Shown in pieces: positions 26,340 through 37,457 of a stretch of DNA of 64,000 bases. Each line of letters begins with the position of its first letter. Position 1 is the first letter of the stretch. Source of the stretch: Oscillospiraceae bacterium (lineage in GTDB: Bacteria > Bacillota > Clostridia > UBA1381 > UBA9506); contig SVJJ01000004.1 in the NCBI GenBank assembly GCA_015069045.1, forward strand, positions 1 through 64,000. Reading direction: 5' to 3'. The notes under the pieces are model-generated. The model ran no database searches. It had not been told where the DNA came from and saw only the letters and a program-made list of their open reading frames with translations. A program made the translations under genes and the position numbers.

Positions 26340-27380
26340 TTAAGATTCCAAAAGATCTAATATACTATGCAAAATGTAATCTGCTTTTTCGGTTTCAAAC
26401 ACCTTGCGTGACTTATCCCCACCAGCACCGGTTAAAACAGCTAAAAAATCACAGCCGGCTCGTTTGGCGGCATACAAATCACAAAGAGCATCCCCAATGA
26501 CCAAAGTTTTGCTACAAGGAGTAGCTTGATAATGGCCGTATACCAGTTCGTCATCAGTATAGCGGTTGCCAAAAACACCTTTTAAAAAAGTGTAAGGGTG
26601 TGGCTTGTTTAGAGGCTCATCATACCCCTCTTTTTTCATGTTTTTCTGAGCAACCGTAACCTCTTGATACGTTATGATAGCATCAGGTGCAAAAGCATCT
26701 AAAACGCCCCAGCGTTTTAGGGGTGTTGTGGCTTCGTTCCAGGGCCGACCGGAACCGATACCAAGCCGTTTTGATTGCCCCAAGTTGCGGAGCAGGGATA
26801 ACAATGGCTCTTTCTCCACCAAAGGCTCTTCACGGAAACTTAGACCTTCTTTGCCCAATTGCATATTGGGATGATTCCAATAGTGAGGGAATTGGTCGTT
26901 CCCTACAAACCATTCTTGAAAACATAGCTGCACCTTTTTCCACAAACCGCCTAAATGAGCGCTTTCGGTCTCTGACAGGTGGGCTTTGTGGGTCAGGTCG
27001 GCAGATAGTGTCTGAAACGTGTTTGCGGCAGTATTAGGGAGTTCATACAATTTTGCAGCAATTTCGTTAAAATTTGTTGTTTTGTGTATAAGAGATGTAC
27101 TCACAACAATCCAAGCCAAATCCCAATTGTTGTTTAAACCCCGATTTTTCATAGCCTGAATGAGTGTATCCTTGGCAAAAATCAAAGAACGAATTGCCTT
27201 GACCTTCTTGGTTAAACAAACAGGGTCAATATCCTCTGTGCCAAAATACAACCGACTATGCAACATTTCCCAAACAGTCAGCGCAGCTGTATCCCAATAA
27301 ATTTCCTCACTTGTAATAACACCATCCATGTCCAACAAAATGGTGTCATATTGATTTAAGAACTCTTTCATTCCATACAC
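26340..27380 (-). CDS. HAD-superfamily phosphatase-like protein, third gene of His-like operon
   Basis: A 346-residue HAD hydrolase. Motif I is LLDMDGVITS near residues 15-24 with the nucleophile Asp and the acid/base Asp. An unusually long cap (about 25-190) follows, then motif II/III-like GSGRPW and motif IV GDALCDLYAAKRAGCDF near 291-307. The start is GTG 27380 or ATG 27371; neither has a good ribosome site, so translational coupling to the preceding gene (stop 3 bases away) is likely. Context with HisB-like and HisD-like genes suggests phosphatase action on their shared intermediate (inference). Confidence 0.75.
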   Translation of the reverse strand: MYGMKEFLNQYDTILLDMDGVITSEEIYWDTAALTVWEMLHSRLYFGTEDIDPVCLTKKVKAIRSLIFAKDTLIQAMKNRGLNNNWDLAWIVVSTSLIHKTTNFNEIAAKLYELPNTAANTFQTLSADLTHKAHLSETESAHLGGLWKKVQLCFQEWFVGNDQFPHYWNHPNMQLGKEGLSFREEPLVEKEPLLSLLRNLGQSKRLGIGSGRPWNEATTPLKRWGVLDAFAPDAIITYQEVTVAQKNMKKEGYDEPLNKPHPYTFLKGVFGNRYTDDELVYGHYQATPCSKTLVIGDALCDLYAAKRAGCDFLAVLTGAGGDKSRKVFETEKADYILHSILDLLES

Positions 27381-27383
27381 TCA

Positions 27384-28010
27384 CTATTCAATGGTAAAAG
27401 TAACGGCCCCTGCCACACCGGCAGAGAGATTTTTGCGTGATGGGTCTAAATAAAAGGCACGACCTAGGGCTATGCCAAAAGAACGGAACACAGCCTCCCA
27501 TATATGGTGGCCATTTACACCTTTTTCAATATCAATATGTAAGGTGCAAAGAGCGCCCTGACAAAAACCTTCCAAAAAGGTCAATAAATCCTCACTTAAC
27601 ACATTTTCAGTTTCAGCGGGTAATTGGATTTTATCGTAGGTGATATCGCAGTAAGCTCTTTCTTCAAAGCTTACCGCACAAAGAGCCTTGGCCTCATCAA
27701 TAATACCAATGCCATCACCATAACCGGTGGCACCGTCTGCCTTATTGTCCCAAATATAGGTGCGGCAAGCTTTGCCGAAGGTAATGCCCAAATCCTCATA
27801 TATAACATGCTGTAGTGTAAAATCTGCCAGATTCATTTCAATTTCAATGGTTATTCCGCTACGCCAGGCAATATGCTCTAACATGTGGGAGAAAAAAGGC
27901 GCATGAGTTTTTAACTTAGTGCGGTAATCGGTGGCAAGACCGGAAGCATCTAAACGAACGGTCATAGCAGATTCTGAGGTTTTTCTTGTAACAGAAACAT
28001 TGTTTTTCAT
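27384..28010 (-). CDS. Divergent imidazoleglycerol-phosphate dehydratase family protein
   Basis: A 208-residue protein with the IGPD (HisB dehydratase) two-repeat layout: FFSHMLEHIA near 39-48, HVIYEDLGI at 68-76, GYGDGIGIIDEAKA near 96-109 and HHIWEAVFRSFG at 168-179. In canonical IGPD the first motif is HHxxED; here the second His is Val69. The central HFF histidine aligns with Thr144, and the terminal STKG reads SAGVAG. These positions are metal or phosphate contacts in known enzymes, so ordinary histidine biosynthesis activity is doubtful. It overlaps the HisD-like gene by 4 bases (ATGA) and has AAAGGAG 9 bases upstream. Confidence 0.7.
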   Translation of the reverse strand: MKNNVSVTRKTSESAMTVRLDASGLATDYRTKLKTHAPFFSHMLEHIAWRSGITIEIEMNLADFTLQHVIYEDLGITFGKACRTYIWDNKADGATGYGDGIGIIDEAKALCAVSFEERAYCDITYDKIQLPAETENVLSEDLLTFLEGFCQGALCTLHIDIEKGVNGHHIWEAVFRSFGIALGRAFYLDPSRKNLSAGVAGAVTFTIE

Positions 28011-29308
28011 TTTTCAGTGCTCCTTTCCTCAACAGCTAACGCGTGGGCATCAAAGCCCTCTACACGGGCAATTTTCGAGGCATATTTGCGAACATTTACA
28101 AATCCTTCCCGACTGGCATAGCCAACGGACGAACGCTTTAAAAAGTCCATAACAGATACAGAGGAATAAGTTTTGGCAAAACCGCCTGTAGGTAAGATGG
28201 CATTGGGTCCCAATACAAAATTGCATAAGGTGACCGGTGTGTAGTCCCCCAACAGAATTTCTCCTGCATTTTTAATTTTTTCCAAAACAGCAAAGGGGTC
28301 TTTGGTCATAACCTCCATATGCTCCGGAGCATATTCGTTAACAAAATCAATGGATTCCTCTAAACTTTCAGTTAAAATCACACCGCCATAGGTTTCAAAA
28401 TTTGTGCGAATAAAGTCCTGACGTTTTTCGGAGAGTTTTGGCAACTGCTTTTCGATAATAGGCAAAACCTTATCTACAAGCTGGCGGGAATGGGTAACTA
28501 AAAGAGCAGCAGAATCGGGACCATGCTCAGCTTCAATCATTACATCCAGCGCCACTTTCTCAGGGTCGGCATGCTCATCGGCCAAAATAATAACCTCGCT
28601 AGGTCCTGCTGGCAGTCCACTGTCAATTTGACCTGCCAGCACGCGCTTGGCAGCCGTGGCATAGGAATTACCCGGGCCAATAATTTTATGGCATTTAGGA
28701 ATGGTATCAGTGCCGTAGGCTACAGCAGCCACGGCTTGAATGCCACCAACCTTGTAAATCTCTGTAATACCAATAATTTTAGCTGTAGCTAAAATAGCAT
28801 CATCACATCCACCTTCTTCATTTGGTGGGGTCACAACACAAATTTTAGGTACACCAGCAACTAGAGCCGGGATTCCCAACATCAGCAAAACAGAAGGAAA
28901 ACTTCCTTTGCCGCGAGGAACATATAAGCAAACATCAGTAATGGGTGTTGTTTTTTCGCCTACCATCAATCCGGCATCTACATTAGTAAACCAAAGTTCT
29001 TCAGGCATTTGTTTTTCATGAAAATTGCGAATGTTTTTAGCGGCATAGGCGATAGCATCCCGGGTTTCGGCATCTAAACGGTTATATCCTGCTTCGATTT
29101 CTTCAGCCGTTACACGCAAGGTCTCTTTTTTAAGGGTGACACCATCAAACTTAGCGGTGTATTGTAAAACAGCCTCGTCGCCATGGGCTTTAATATCAGC
29201 AGCTATTTCACGGGCTAATTCCATCTGACGGCTAATATCTTGTTCGGCACGCTTTATAACAAACTCCTTTTCCTCTTGTGTCATATCCTTAAGAACTCGA
29301 ATTTTCAT
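28007..29308 (-). CDS. HisD-family dehydrogenase, divergent at the zinc site
   Basis: A 433-residue member of the histidinol dehydrogenase family: GPGNSYATAAKRVLAG, LPAGPSEVIILAD, AEHGPDSA (259-266 region), YAPEHMEVM with the catalytic Glu329-His330 pair, and FDAHALAV (His422). Aligned by eye to E. coli HisD, zinc ligand Gln259 is Glu259 and zinc ligand Asp360 is Asn363. Substrate-contact His367 is Ala370. His262 and His419 equivalents are kept. Such changes recall HisD-family enzymes with other substrates, for example sulfopropanediol dehydrogenases. It is the first gene of the operon, with GGAAAGGA upstream and no T-box leader. Confidence 0.75.
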   Translation of the reverse strand: MKIRVLKDMTQEEKEFVIKRAEQDISRQMELAREIAADIKAHGDEAVLQYTAKFDGVTLKKETLRVTAEEIEAGYNRLDAETRDAIAYAAKNIRNFHEKQMPEELWFTNVDAGLMVGEKTTPITDVCLYVPRGKGSFPSVLLMLGIPALVAGVPKICVVTPPNEEGGCDDAILATAKIIGITEIYKVGGIQAVAAVAYGTDTIPKCHKIIGPGNSYATAAKRVLAGQIDSGLPAGPSEVIILADEHADPEKVALDVMIEAEHGPDSAALLVTHSRQLVDKVLPIIEKQLPKLSEKRQDFIRTNFETYGGVILTESLEESIDFVNEYAPEHMEVMTKDPFAVLEKIKNAGEILLGDYTPVTLCNFVLGPNAILPTGGFAKTYSSVSVMDFLKRSSVGYASREGFVNVRKYASKIARVEGFDAHALAVEERSTEK

Positions 29309-29523
29309 ATGGCTAAATCCTTTCCCAGTGTGGTTTTATTTACATTAATTATTGTGATTTGCATAATATGTTTTATTCTATCATACCCAGAGAATAATTG
29401 CAAGACATCTAACATAAATTTAATTGAAAACCTTTTAAATTTCCTTCTACATTCAAAAAATGTGTGAAATCTGTCAATTTTGTTAAGATATTATGTAAAC
29501 TTATATTTTTTTTAAAAAAATAG

Positions 29524-30876: not shown

Positions 30877-30952
30877 CGGGGTGTAGCGCAGTTGGTAGCG
30901 CGCCTGCTTTGGGAGCAGGATGCCGCAGGTTCAAGTCCTGTCACTCCGACCA
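30877..30952 (+). tRNA. tRNA-Pro (anticodon UGG)
   Basis: A 76-nt cloverleaf with encoded CCA: acceptor CGGGGTG/CACTCCG, D stem GCGC/GCGC, anticodon arm CCTGC-TTTGGGA-GCAGG giving UGG, and T arm GCAGG-TTCAAGT-CCTGT. The acceptor stem has a G4-U69 wobble. The 3' strand would pair perfectly with the 5' strand of the other tRNA-Pro gene at 38816-38892. It marks the left edge of the accessory segment. Confidence 0.97.
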
Positions 30953-31298: not shown

Positions 31299-32735
31299 AT
31301 GAACAAAATTTTACTTGAGAACAAAATGAAAACTCTTGAGCGGCTGGTGTTGCAGGATATTGTTGAAAGCTATGGCATGCAAAGGGCTTCTGAAAAGAAC
31401 TACGATGTACTGATGACAAAACTGATCGATAGGGTGACTCAGTTTTATGAAGATCTGGGGCATGGAGAGACCTCTGCAGAGAGATTGAGTCGATACGGAG
31501 AGCGGGCAGGGATTTATGAAAAACAGTGGCAGTTACAGCTTGATGAGGCTGCAAAGGTAAGTGTGCGCCAAATCATTCAAAAGCTGCCGAAAGAAAAGCT
31601 TTCAAAAAGCACACAGTGGGAGGTGATTCAGGCGGTGCGCCCGGTGCTGAAACAGAGAATGGAAGTGCTTTCTAACCTGCATTCAGCATTAGCTTTACAA
31701 AAGCAGAACTATATGCTATTATGGGATTATGAGGATGCAGGGTTTTCCCACTATTGTATTTTAACAGAGGGCGAAAATTGTGATGACTGCAACAGTTTAG
31801 AGGGTCAGGTTTTTCCCATTAGTGAAGCGCGGGTAGGAGAAAATTTTGCACCGATGCATCCTAACTGCAACTGTCGAGTTGGCGTTTTAGATGATGCAGG
31901 GCAAGTGGCTTACGTCATCTGTGAGGGCAAGGCAGAAAAGAAGGAAGAAGAAACAAACTGGTACGATGCCTTTTTGCGAATGCCAAAGGATGCTAGGGGA
32001 CTGTTTTTAGCTTTTGCCCGTGCGCAGAGTGAACGATTGGGTCGGAATGACATTGCCGGCTTTTTGGATTGGCTGACTATGGGGATAGTCAGCGGCACTT
32101 GGCAGGGTTATCAGGATAGGTATCAGGAACTGCTCAACGATCCAACACTCTATAATGCTGTAAACTACTTAACAAGCGGTTTTGCAGATACTGTTAAAGG
32201 CGCCATAACCCCTGAAGAACCTCTTTCTCTTCAGCACTGGCTGGATTCTTTAGGAGTTATTTCGACTGTTTTTGGGGCATATCAGATGGGGAAACGTAGT
32301 GGTAGCTCATATAAAACAGGGGCAAAAGTTACTCGATTTAGAGATAATATTGAAGAAGGTCTGGAGCAAACGCAAAAAATTAATTATTCCGGCATAACTC
32401 AAAAAGGAACATCCAAAATCCCATGGGATAGTTGGCGAAATTATGAGAAAGTGACGAAAAATGGCCAGGTATACGCTAAGGTCGGAAATAGGCTATATTC
32501 GGAACATGCTGTTAATCGAATGCAACCTAGCGGAAATCGCTTTGGACCGAATATTACTCAAGGTTATGGAATAGATTATGGCAGAAGCATCGCTCCGCGG
32601 TATGTGGAAGATATTATTAACAGTACAAAGGGTATTTTCCAGCCTGAAACAGGAAACTATGTTCACCATTTTGGAACGGTTAAAGTAATTGTTAATCAAC
32701 AAGGTGCTGTCGTTACAATTATGACTTATCAATAA
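31299..32735 (+). CDS. Phage minor-head-like protein fused to a C-terminal toxin-like domain
   Basis: A 478-residue protein. Residues ~1-200 resemble phage minor head proteins (Mu gpF/SPP1 gp7 type): a helical N-terminus, then ENCDDCNSLEGQVFPISEAR (CxxC near 162-165) and APMHPNCNCRVGVLDD (near 184-199). The middle is a linker with GKRSGSS. The last ~80 residues (YSEHAVNRMQPSG, RYVEDIINSTKGIF, HHFGTVKVIVNQQGAVVTIMTY) look like a small BECR-type RNase toxin (EHA.RM plus a terminal beta-strand pattern). No phage genes flank it. A small gene 26 bases downstream is a probable immunity gene. RBS AAAGGAG precedes the ATG. Confidence 0.65.
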   Translation: MNKILLENKMKTLERLVLQDIVESYGMQRASEKNYDVLMTKLIDRVTQFYEDLGHGETSAERLSRYGERAGIYEKQWQLQLDEAAKVSVRQIIQKLPKEKLSKSTQWEVIQAVRPVLKQRMEVLSNLHSALALQKQNYMLLWDYEDAGFSHYCILTEGENCDDCNSLEGQVFPISEARVGENFAPMHPNCNCRVGVLDDAGQVAYVICEGKAEKKEEETNWYDAFLRMPKDARGLFLAFARAQSERLGRNDIAGFLDWLTMGIVSGTWQGYQDRYQELLNDPTLYNAVNYLTSGFADTVKGAITPEEPLSLQHWLDSLGVISTVFGAYQMGKRSGSSYKTGAKVTRFRDNIEEGLEQTQKINYSGITQKGTSKIPWDSWRNYEKVTKNGQVYAKVGNRLYSEHAVNRMQPSGNRFGPNITQGYGIDYGRSIAPRYVEDIINSTKGIFQPETGNYVHHFGTVKVIVNQQGAVVTIMTYQ

Positions 32736-32761
32736 CTATTTAGGTAATTAAGGAGAAGGAT

Positions 32762-33046
32762 ATGAATTCTATAAACGAATTAATAGTTTTATGCGAAAAA
32801 TTTAAGGAAAATGCTTTTGAGATTGAAGAATTTCAAAGCAAACTAGGAGAGATTCTTCTGCCGGATATGTGCAAATATACATTGGAAAAAGCACAACATA
32901 ATGGACACAATGATTTAGAAGAAATAATTTATTGCTATAGTAAGGAAACCGGAAAAATATATGCTGATAAAGTGGCAGAAGAGTTGATTCAAGCGGCGAA
33001 AGCAGAACAGAAACGGTTGGAAAATTATAAACCATATCAAGAATAA
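32762..33046 (+). CDS. Small acidic protein, candidate immunity protein
   Basis: A 94-residue helical protein rich in Glu and Lys (NSINELIVLCEKFKENAFEI; AEELIQAAKAEQKRLENY). It has no signal peptide or membrane segment. It follows the toxin-like fusion gene by 26 bases with a good AAGGAGAAGG site, the standard toxin-immunity arrangement. I do not recognise the family. Its last 10 bases overlap the 3' end of a degraded minus-strand gene. Confidence 0.55.
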   Translation: MNSINELIVLCEKFKENAFEIEEFQSKLGEILLPDMCKYTLEKAQHNGHNDLEEIIYCYSKETGKIYADKVAEELIQAAKAEQKRLENYKPYQE

Positions 33047-33472: not shown

Positions 33473-33511
33473 ATAATTAATTTAATATTTGTTCGTAAAC
33501 TATGGAATTAT

Positions 33512-33675
33512 AATAGGTAGAGGTGCGGGCTTTAAGAGTAGCAAAACTTAATGATGGGCATCAGAGTTTTGTAAAAGGAAAGGTCGCCGAAATGTGTGTG
33601 CTGTCCGGGCACCCATGTTGGGATGCAGTAGAATATGTTGCATACTGTCACTTTTGTGGAGCGCTATCGTGATTA
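33512..33675 (+). promoter_or_regulatory. Lysine riboswitch (L-box)
   Basis: The conserved L-box pieces occur in order: GGTAGAGGTGCG, TTAAGAGTAG, GGAAAGGTCGCCGAA, GGGCACCCATGTTGGG, ATACTGTCAC and GTGGAGCGCTATC, with the closing helix P1 between GGTAG and CTATC. A terminator hairpin follows at 33709-33747. High lysine should favour termination. The downstream genes encode an amino-acid ABC transporter, which marks it as a lysine uptake system. Confidence 0.92.
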
Positions 33676-33810: not shown

Positions 33811-34641
33811 ATGAAAAAAATAATTTCACTCATTCTTGTTACCATGATGGCTCTTGGTTTGGTTGCCTGCGGCGGTGCCAATACAGGGAGCGAAGGTACG
33901 GAGAACAATGTTTTAAAGGTTGGTATGGAATGTAACTATGCACCTTATAACTGGTCACAGACAGATGATGCCAATGGTGCCGTTCCCATTCAAAATGTGG
34001 ACAATATGTATACCAACGGCTACGATGTACAGGTTGCAAAGAGTATTGCAGAATCTATGGGCAAGGAACTTCAAATTTATTCTTACGAATGGGATAGTTT
34101 AATTCCGGCTGTTCAATCCGGTAATTTGGATATGATTATTGCCGGTATGAGCCCCACAGATGAGAGAAAGGAAAAAATTGATTTTTCCAATTTATATTAT
34201 GTATCTAACTTGGTTGCCATTACCAAGGAGGATGCTTTAGCAGATGTTACCACCATTGCAGACCTTGATGGTAAGAAAATTGCCGCACAGTCCGGCACCT
34301 CTCATTTAGAGGCTTTAGCGGGTCAAACAACGGCAGAGGTTAGTGAATTAGCTGATTTTTCTACTATGTTGATCGCATTAAGTGCCGGTACTATTGATGG
34401 CTATATTTCTGAAGAGCCTACTGCTATGGCTATTTGCACAGAGGATTCCGGTTATTCTTATATCCCCTTTGTTAACAATGAAACAGGCTTTAATATTCCT
34501 GTAGAAGATTCCAGTATTGCAGTTGGCGTAAAAAAGGGTTCTGAGCTTTTAGCCGATATCAATAGCTATTTAGATACTTTTGGCGAAGATGCTCAAAAGG
34601 CACTCATGGCCGACATGGTAAAAATTGCGCCGGTAGACTGA
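33811..34641 (+). CDS. Amino-acid (probably lysine) ABC transporter substrate-binding lipoprotein
   Basis: A 276-residue extracellular lipoprotein of the family 3 solute-binding class. The signal peptide ends at the lipobox LVAC (Cys20). The mature part has VGMECNYAPYNW, GYDVQVAKSIAESMG, WDSLIPAVQSGNLDMIIAGMSPTDERKEKIDFS and DGKKIAAQSGTSHLEAL, the usual periplasmic-binding folds for polar amino acids. Lysine specificity is inferred from the L-box leader, not from binding residues. It is the first gene of a three-gene operon and is separated from the permease gene by a hairpin that may raise its relative expression. Confidence 0.92.
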   Translation: MKKIISLILVTMMALGLVACGGANTGSEGTENNVLKVGMECNYAPYNWSQTDDANGAVPIQNVDNMYTNGYDVQVAKSIAESMGKELQIYSYEWDSLIPAVQSGNLDMIIAGMSPTDERKEKIDFSNLYYVSNLVAITKEDALADVTTIADLDGKKIAAQSGTSHLEALAGQTTAEVSELADFSTMLIALSAGTIDGYISEEPTAMAICTEDSGYSYIPFVNNETGFNIPVEDSSIAVGVKKGSELLADINSYLDTFGEDAQKALMADMVKIAPVD

Positions 34642-34669
34642 TAGATTATCATATGTTGGAATTGCGATG

Positions 34670-34697
34670 TTTCCCTCCCATCATCCCGGGAGGGAAA
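34670..34697 (+). terminator. Intra-operon hairpin after the binding-protein gene
   Basis: A 10-bp GC-rich stem TTTCCCTCCC / GGGAGGGAAA with an 8-base loop, followed by a T-rich stretch. A second 8-bp hairpin (34720-34741) precedes the permease ribosome site. Probably a partial terminator or mRNA stabiliser giving excess binding protein. Confidence 0.6.
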
Positions 34698-34757
34698 CCT
34701 CTTCTATTTTGACTATGATAATACAGCGAATCTGCTGTATTATCAGAAAGGATCAAC

Positions 34758-35531
34758 ATGATTAATTTTCTTAAGGATGTAGTCAATATATTGATTGAAT
34801 ATAAAGGATATTTCCTTCAAGGTATCGGCTACACAATGCTTATTGCCTTAACAGGTACTATAATCGGTCTTCTAATTGGTCTGATAACCGGTGTTATCAG
34901 AACAATACCAAAGTCAAAAAATTCGTTATTAAATGGGATTTTAAAAGTTGTAAATGCCATTATCGGCATTTATGTAGAGGTGTTTCGCGGAACACCTATG
35001 ATGGTACAGTCCATGGTTATTTTCTGGGGTTATGCCTTTATGAATGATGGACAAACCCTACCTCTTATTCCGGCCGGTATTTTCATTGTTTCTATCAATA
35101 CTGGTGCTTATATGGCAGAAATTGTTCGTGGAGGTATTATCTCCATTGATAAGGGACAGTTTGAAGGTTCTTATTCCATTGGTATGAACCATTTTCAAAC
35201 CATGCTTTATGTGGTTATTCCGCAGGCCATTCGCAATATTTTACCTGCCATCAGCAACGAATTTGTTATTAACATTAAAGACACATCTGTCCTAAATGTA
35301 ATTGGTGTTACAGAACTGTTTTTCTTTACGGCTAAAATATCTAAAATGAATTGGGCTATTTTTGAAACCTATGTGGTTGCTTGTGTAATTTATTTCATTC
35401 TCACTTTTACAATCACAAGGATTCTCCGTTATATCGAACAATGTCTTGACGGTCCTTCTGCCTATTTACTTCACCACTCATCTACATTGCCGGATGAGAG
35501 CTTTGTAGTTAATAAGGAGGAACGGCCATGA
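34758..35531 (+). CDS. Amino-acid ABC transporter permease (HisM/GlnP type)
   Basis: A 257-residue membrane permease with about five membrane segments. The N-terminal block [21 protein letters not shown] and the EAA-loop region ([20 protein letters not shown] then [21 protein letters not shown]) are typical of the HisMQ/GlnP family. RBS AAAGGAT precedes the ATG. It overlaps the ATPase gene by 4 bases. As the only permease of the operon it would form a homodimer. Lysine transport is inferred from the riboswitch. Confidence 0.93.
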
Positions 35532-36262
35532 GTAAAATTATCTCTATTCAGGGATTAAAAAAATCCTTTGGAGAAAATGAAGTGTTAAAGGATATTAATT
35601 TTTCTGTTAATACAGGTGATGTAACATGTATTATTGGTGCCTCCGGTTCCGGTAAGTCGACCATGCTTCGTTGTATTAACCTTTTAGAGGAGCCAACAGA
35701 CGGAGAAATTATTTACAATGACCAAAACATTTTAAAAACCAAAGATATTCCCGCCTATCGTGCTAAGGTCAGCATGGTTTTTCAAAATTTTAATCTTTTT
35801 GATAATATGACCGTTTTAAAAAACTGTACAATTGGCTTAAGACGGGTTTTAAAGATTGATAAGGAAACGGCTAAAAAGGAAGCGATGATGTACCTCGAAA
35901 AGGTTGGTATGCTTCCCTATATCAACGCAAAGCCGAGGCAACTTTCCGGCGGACAAAAACAGCGGGTTGCTATTGCGAGAGCTCTGGCCATGAAACCGGA
36001 TGTCATTTTGTTTGACGAACCAACCTCAGCACTGGATCCACAGATGGTGGGGGAGGTTTTAGAGGTTATTCGGCGATTGGCGAAGGAAGGTCTTACCATG
36101 CTGGTTGTTACCCATGAAATGGCCTTTGCCAGAGATGTTTCCAATCATGTTGTGTTTATGCATAATGGTGTTATTTGTGAAGAGGGGTCTCCCGAGGAAA
36201 TTTTCGGAAATCCTCAAAAAGAGGAAACGAGAGAATTCTTATCCCGCTTCTTAAGAGAATAA
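35528..36262 (+). CDS. Amino-acid ABC transporter ATPase
   Basis: A 244-residue ATP-binding subunit of the GlnQ/HisP family. Walker A is GASGSGKST near 37-45, the Q-loop [16 protein letters not shown], the signature [15 protein letters not shown] near 141-155, Walker [14 protein letters not shown] and the H-loop VTHEMAFA. The start overlaps the permease stop (ATGA), with AAGGAGG upstream. It ends the lysine-type operon, followed by a strong terminator. Confidence 0.96.
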
Positions 36263-36611: not shown

Positions 36612-37289
36612 TCAGAGTTTTTTCTTTAAAAGTGATTTTAAATAATTTTTATTAAAAGCTCTCGGAGAACCAAAAAACTCGGTTTCTGATTTGGAAAACG
36701 TGTTTGTTTTTGCTTTTAGAGAGAGTAATTCCAATGAACACAACAAATCTGCAACTTGGAATAACTTGTAGTCAGCGGGGCGTACTTTTCTGAATTCAAC
36801 ATTTGAATAAAACACATTGAAAACTGTTGTAATTATTTTTGTGAGTTCAACTTGCCCGTTATCGTAATAAATTATGATTTCATCAAATGAATGGAAAAAG
36901 TCTGAATTACTGTTTATTGTGTTCGCGAGATTTCTTGACAGTTTTGATGTCATTGCAATAATATCATCACAATCGTTTTTGTCAACATAGGTACAAATAT
37001 AGTTGAAATCCAATTTTCTTGCAAAGTTAAATAATGCGTGGAAAATGCGTTTTCTTTCTTCCATAAGCATTGTTTTATAGATTTCTTCACGGCGAATAAT
37101 TGGTCCTGTATGTACTGCACTATAATCAAAATTTAAATTGTGTAAATGAAAATCCAATGATTTGATATTTTCGGTTATATCGACATCCTGATTGTGCAAA
37201 ATCATTGTAATCAAATAATAGGGGGCGTGAGGTTTTAATGGACCGAAATCGCCTGATTCGTCAATGAATATACTTAATTTTTTGTTCAT
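36612..37289 (-). CDS. DUF3800 domain protein
   Basis: A 225-residue protein with LSIFIDESGDFG at residues 4-15, the DUF3800 signature. RNase H-like acidic positions are plausible at IIYYDNGQVELTKII and at the C-terminal LFQVADLLCSLELLSLK. Members are predicted nucleases found near mobile elements and some defence loci; function is not established. The start MNKKL at 37289 has AAAAAGGTG upstream; the frame continues to 37388 through a terminator-like hairpin and is not used. It lies beside an IS3-family element inside the tRNA-Pro-bounded segment. Confidence 0.8.
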   Translation of the reverse strand: MNKKLSIFIDESGDFGPLKPHAPYYLITMILHNQDVDITENIKSLDFHLHNLNFDYSAVHTGPIIRREEIYKTMLMEERKRIFHALFNFARKLDFNYICTYVDKNDCDDIIAMTSKLSRNLANTINSNSDFFHSFDEIIIYYDNGQVELTKIITTVFNVFYSNVEFRKVRPADYKLFQVADLLCSLELLSLKAKTNTFSKSETEFFGSPRAFNKNYLKSLLKKKL

Positions 37290-37313
37290 AAGCACACCTT
37301 TTTTCGCTTGTAT

Positions 37314-37339
37314 AAAAAGTGGCGGGGAAATTCCCCGCC
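37314..37339 (-). terminator. Terminator-like hairpin in the DUF3800 leader
   Basis: GGCGGGGAA / TTCCCCGCC stem (37321-37329 / 37331-37339), followed on the minus strand by five T's, 25 bases upstream of the DUF3800 start. Either a relic of a lost upstream gene or an attenuator. Confidence 0.55.
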
Positions 37340-37457
37340 GTTCGGTGGACCAAGACTTTTCAGCCAGCCCAAAGAGCAATATTAACATTGCTCTTATATT
37401 CTATGGTTATTATAACATATTTATTCTCAAAAGTCAATCCTAAACACTTAAAGAACT

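Follow-up and report, generated by a model that had tools for sequence, protein, structure and literature searches.

Textbooks present histidine biosynthesis as a single pathway, universal and invariant. Its imidazoleglycerol-phosphate dehydratase (IGPD, HisB) is a known herbicide target, and the active site of IGPD is formed between subunits. In the histidinol dehydrogenase HisD of E. coli, Q259, H262, D360, and H419 are the Zn ligands, E326 and H327 are the catalytic residues, and H367 is an imidazole-side residue (see also PMC11382572). For IGPD, the metal ligands and phosphate contacts were assigned from Arabidopsis IGPD2. One Mn is bound by H47, H74, H169, and E173, and the other by H73, E77, H145, and H170; the phosphate is bound by Q51, H55, R99, R121, K177, S199, and K201 (PMC4509728). 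A relative of HisD, the sulfopropanediol (R-DHPS) 3-dehydrogenase HpsN, oxidizes the terminal CH2OH of the vicinal diol dihydroxypropanesulfonate to a carboxylate, and its motif ends in His126 (PMC11382572).

The locus described here was found in a stretch of 64,000 nucleotides from an Oscillospiraceae bacterium (the window). By ORF reading, three genes at 26340-29308 form one operon on the minus strand. They encode a HisD-like protein (HisD', 28007..29308, 433 aa), a HisB-like protein (HisB', 27384..28010, 208 aa), and a HAD phosphatase (26340..27380, 346 aa), which starts with GTG, or with an in-frame ATG at 27371. The ORFs of HisD' and HisB' share 4 bases, and a gap of 3 bases separates HisB' from the HAD gene, just as the initial annotation had described. 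The order and orientation of the trio are kept in almost every related locus examined, and so the arrangement is not due to chance. A promoter-like site is located 5' of HisD' (29375..29403, minus strand), which is a consensus match only (TTGCAA and TAGAAT, spaced by 17 nt, with an extended -10 TG). An Rfam search of the region 5' of the operon found neither a T-box nor any other element.

Several other features were observed in the same window. A lysine riboswitch (33510-33674) precedes a likely amino-acid ABC transporter operon (33811-36262), and a DUF3800-XI RNA (RF02975, 37324-37371) lies within a minus-strand ORF (36612-37388). A MuF (phage Mu F-like) domain protein (478 aa, 31299-33046), with a small ORF just 3', is found beside a tRNA (30877-30949); the two proteins are possibly a MuF-type toxin/immunity pair.

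The HisB' protein contains a full-length IGPD domain (PF00475, 105.3 bits; gathering score 27). However, it scores below every NCBIfam HisB equivalog cut-off (best 108.7 bits vs 189), and the variants form a separate clade in the tree (support 98/96). Residue analysis of 117 HisB' variants, with two sequences that have Ser at R99 (L260 and L261) tallied apart, showed that E21, H47, H73, E77, D108, R121, H169, H170, and E173 are kept in all of them. These include both catalytic glutamates and six of the eight Mn ligands. The other two ligands are changed in 117/117, H74 to V, L, or I, and H145 to T, V, or A. Among the seven phosphate contacts, only R121 is kept; the other six are replaced (Q51H, H55R, R99G, K177R, S199V, and K201A, with one Cys). 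In the window protein, the residues V69, T144, G96, R50, R176, and A200 replace metal- or phosphate-binding residues. Two of the replaced positions are variable in true HisB as well: in the canonical clostridial enzymes, position 145 is mostly Glu and position 51 is not Gln. Each Mn has thus lost one of its four protein ligands, and the phosphate pocket has been rebuilt with two arginines brought in.

The HisD' protein matches PF00815 (Histidinol_dh, 507 bits) and scores above the TIGR00069 equivalog cut-off (479.5 vs 243.8 bits). The residues S237, H262, E326, H327, E414, and H419 are kept in all full-length HisD' examined. However, all of these sequences carry the changes Q259E, D360N, and H367A (E259, N363, and A370 in the window protein), which affect two Zn ligands and the imidazole-side histidine. 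In the tree, HisD' forms a tight clade with a very long branch (support 100/100). HisD' is thus predicted to be a histidinol-dehydrogenase-like 4-electron alcohol dehydrogenase of a variant clade. Identification of HisD' as HpsN itself was considered and rejected: its loop (xGKGSFPS) has Phe and not His126, and its sequence score is nearer to HisD. The altered metal and substrate residues that the initial annotation had noticed in both proteins are therefore real and fixed across the family, and the HisB and HisD trees place the variants in well-supported separate clades. The lost metal ligands, together with the small host genome, might also suggest decaying remnants of a lost histidine pathway. 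This explanation is highly improbable, because the HisD' sequences of Clostridia share at least 70% identity, the catalytic residues are invariant, and the ORFs are intact and operonic in many genomes.

The third protein, which Pfam also assigns to HAD, retains the catalytic residues of the HAD phosphatases (D17, D19, K259, D297, and D301 in 92 aligned rows). Its closest relative is a hypothetical protein of S. aureus (PDB 1qyi, E 8e-43), which matches it along almost its entire length and belongs to the same HAD subfamily. To our knowledge, 1qyi has neither an assigned function nor a connection to his genes. The score of the window protein against the HAD-type histidinol-phosphate phosphatase model (TIGR01656) is 21.7 bits, which is below the cut-off of 84.15. 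The enzyme is probably an imidazoleglycerol-phosphate (IGP) phosphatase, or else a histidinol-phosphate phosphatase.

The host genome (1.48 Mb, 97.5% complete) was then considered as a whole. The initial annotation stated that no other his gene is present. This is correct for the window, but not for the genome: hisZ-hisG-hisH and hisA-hisF-hisIE were located on another contig by searches and flank reading, and a hisC-like gene is found on a third contig. Judged from its gene content, the host has the whole upper histidine pathway as far as IGP. Genome searches identified a single IGPD gene and a single HisD gene, both in this operon; the second, canonical hisB or hisD that had been suggested for searching was not found elsewhere in the genome. 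Since the upstream genes are present and there is only one hisB and one hisD, the genes of the operon are the sole candidates for the dehydratase and the dehydrogenase.

The distribution of the two modules was surveyed in 95 genomes of the order, in which the HisB matches fall into two clean score groups. HisB' (105-141 bits) was found in 61 genomes and canonical hisB (202-219 bits) in 22, in one of which (G069) the gene is divided between two contigs. No genome contains both, and 12 contain neither. The split between variant and canonical HisD parallels that of HisB wherever the sequence was read. The HAD gene is present in 54 of the 61 variant genomes, including some in which it lies apart from HisB', and in none of the 22 canonical genomes; 7/61 variant genomes lack it. 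All of the variant genomes have hisG or hisA/F, and 56 have both. Two of them (G084 and G086) have hisG, while hisA/F was not found, perhaps because of assembly gaps. In G086, two copies of the HisD'-HisB'-HAD operon were observed (L154 and L155), in a genome where hisA and hisF were not found.

The gene order follows the same division. In the fully canonical genomes, the operon is arranged as hisZ-G-D-C-B-H-A-F-IE (G055 and G065). In those variant genomes of family f3 whose loci were read, hisZ-G-A are kept together and the variant module is located elsewhere. G002 (genus g8) shares this hisZ-G-A arrangement with the variant genomes and has hisH-F at a separate locus, but its hisC..hisD-hisB cluster is canonical. 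This layout looks like an exchange of the whole lower module, and it is as expected if the whole module was swapped. Comparative genomics thus gives good support to the replacement of hisB, hisC, and hisD by HisD'-HisB'-HAD at the end of histidine synthesis.

The initial annotation had proposed a parallel pathway beside histidine synthesis, which acts on a different phosphorylated substrate. This proposal did not hold for the host, where the upstream his genes are present without a canonical hisB or hisD, nor for the order, where the two modules alternate across 83 genomes. A difference from the textbook substrate is still likely. The substrate would probably be a non-phosphorylated imidazole intermediate, and not a phosphorylated compound.

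The third canonical gene, hisC, differs between the two groups. Of the canonical genomes, 21/22 have a hisC above the curated cut-off; among the variant genomes, the figure is 12/13 in the family of the window (f1) and 0/48 outside it. The difference between the canonical genomes and the variant genomes outside f1 has a Fisher p of 6e-17, although the genome counts are not phylogenetically independent. The hisC-like gene of f1 need not serve histidine synthesis, because G072, which has no hisB, no hisD, and only a weak hisA/F match, also has one. A hidden HisC was sought among the weaker matches of the variant genomes; two of these were classified, and both score best as CobD. The other kind of weak match tested was a general class I aminotransferase.

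These data can be read in more than one way. The module may still carry out the usual reactions in their usual sequence: HisB' would dehydrate IGP, an unrecognised aminotransferase would take the place of HisC, the HAD enzyme would dephosphorylate histidinol phosphate, and HisD' would oxidize histidinol. The residue changes would then be compensated ones, in a diverged but functionally equivalent module. The same mutual exclusion with the canonical genes would be seen in this case, and the basic residues R50, R176, H46, and R118 of HisB' could hold a phosphate. Moreover, Q259E together with D360N leaves the net charge of the Zn site unchanged in HisD', and most variant genomes of f1 have the hisC-like gene. 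However, outside f1, 48/48 variant genomes have lost hisC jointly with hisB and hisD. The substitutions fall on the phosphate contacts of HisB and on the Zn and imidazole contacts of HisD, and they are invariant rather than drifting. The ordinary order is quite possible, though less likely than not.

Alternatively, the operon might be a rebuilt lower half of histidine biosynthesis, in which the phosphate is removed first and the amination comes last. We prefer this second reading, and consider it about evenly balanced between right and wrong. The HAD enzyme would remove the phosphate of IGP to give imidazoleglycerol. HisD' with NAD+ would then oxidize the terminal CH2OH of the triol side chain to a carboxylate, giving imidazoleglycerate; the reaction would be that of HpsN on its vicinal diol, although the HpsN-specific His126 is absent from HisD'. 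HisB' would eliminate the ring-side hydroxyl by IGPD-type imidazolate chemistry to give imidazolepyruvate, and R50, R176, H46, and R118 would hold the carboxylate where IGPD holds the phosphate. As the last step, a general class I aminotransferase might convert imidazolepyruvate to histidine. The HisD' and HisB' steps might also take place in the opposite order, via imidazole-acetol.

Amination at the last step would explain the absence of HisC. The joint loss of hisB, hisC, and hisD, the dedicated phosphatase, the rebuilt phosphate pocket, and the changed Zn and imidazole contacts together suggest that dephosphorylation might come first and amination last. Several observations count against this reading. 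The hisC-like gene occurs in all but one of the 13 variant genomes of f1, and seven variant genomes have no HAD gene. Also, hisA/F was not found in G084 and G086, no histidine-responsive element was found upstream of the operon, and in Candidatus Formimonas warabiya, which has a canonical hisB too, a HisD'-HisB' pair occurs in a catabolic-looking cluster. If the amination-last order is correct, there would be a second natural route from IGP to histidine, which passes through neither HisC, histidinol phosphate, nor histidinol; such a route has, in our estimation, an equal chance of being real or not.

In the complete genome of Candidatus Formimonas warabiya, a HisD'-HisB' pair is located beside a HisB paralogue, a sugar-type binding protein, LarA, GlcD, and GlcF. 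This organism also has a canonical hisB, within a hisZG-B-H-A-FI operon, and so it is the one case that fits the parallel-pathway idea. It might be argued more generally that the module has nothing to do with histidine and acts on another substrate, perhaps one that resembles a sugar or polyol, and that histidine is made otherwise or taken up. The fixed active-site changes would agree with this, as would the setting of the pair in Formimonas and at L227, where its neighbours are a second HisB paralogue, a sugar-type binding protein, and LarA/GlcD/GlcF or SDR/ADH genes. However, 61 variant genomes keep upper-pathway genes without canonical hisB or hisD, and their pathway would reach a dead end at IGP. 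The variant and canonical modules alternate and do not co-exist. In the trees, the HisD' of Formimonas falls within the variant clade and its HisB' groups with Petroclostridium and relatives; these proteins look like later recruits. A substrate unrelated to histidine is thus an unlikely explanation overall. In hosts with the upper pathway, a role outside histidine synthesis is unlikely, as that pathway would then stop at IGP; in Formimonas, the pair may have such a role.

The further paralogue, HisB2, was observed in catabolic-looking clusters of Formimonas warabiya and a related MAG (L217, 2820-10763; L227, 100-5949; L273, 6610-10419). Its neighbours are a sugar-type binding protein, LarA, and GlcD/GlcF or SDR/ADH. 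At L273, MttB-like methyltransferases, a corrinoid protein, and an XdhA-like oxidase are also found beside it.

Homologues of HisB' were also searched beyond the order. A scan of 84,980 species genomes identified 157 relatives, of which 80 were kept. The titles of these 80 name Clostridia and other Bacillota, and one says only 'bacterium'. In most of the loci, HisD' lies directly before HisB' and the HAD gene directly after it; the repeated co-occurrence of the three genes, which the initial annotation had proposed to look for, was thus seen in the neighbourhoods of the homologues. Five loci have HisB'-HAD without an adjoining HisD', and the single HisD of the genome is still of the variant type. 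The complete chromosome of Petroclostridium sp. X23 contains hisB and hisD only as variants. The module is present in dozens of gut and environmental Clostridia that lack the usual last-step histidine genes.

An additional gene was observed at many of these loci. In 55 of the 88 loci compared (such as L175, 7662-8213, and also L180 and L168), the HAD gene or HisB' is followed by a gene for a class I fumarase/tartrate dehydratase beta subunit (PF05683, PRK06842), which stays even where the HAD gene is gone. None of the loci examined showed an adjacent alpha subunit, and the beta subunit is absent from the corresponding place in the window.

Searches of the open-access literature turned up no account of the HisD'-HisB'-HAD module or of a histidine route without HisC. 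The GapMind survey reports hisC and hisN gaps in other organisms, and the module is not among them. If the proposed route is true, the histidine pathway would have an alternative end, encoded by a three-gene module across many genera of Clostridia. The auxotrophy predictions would then be corrected for gut bacteria that seem to lack hisC. HisB' would be a dehydratase with a rebuilt di-metal site, which could be compared with IGPD.
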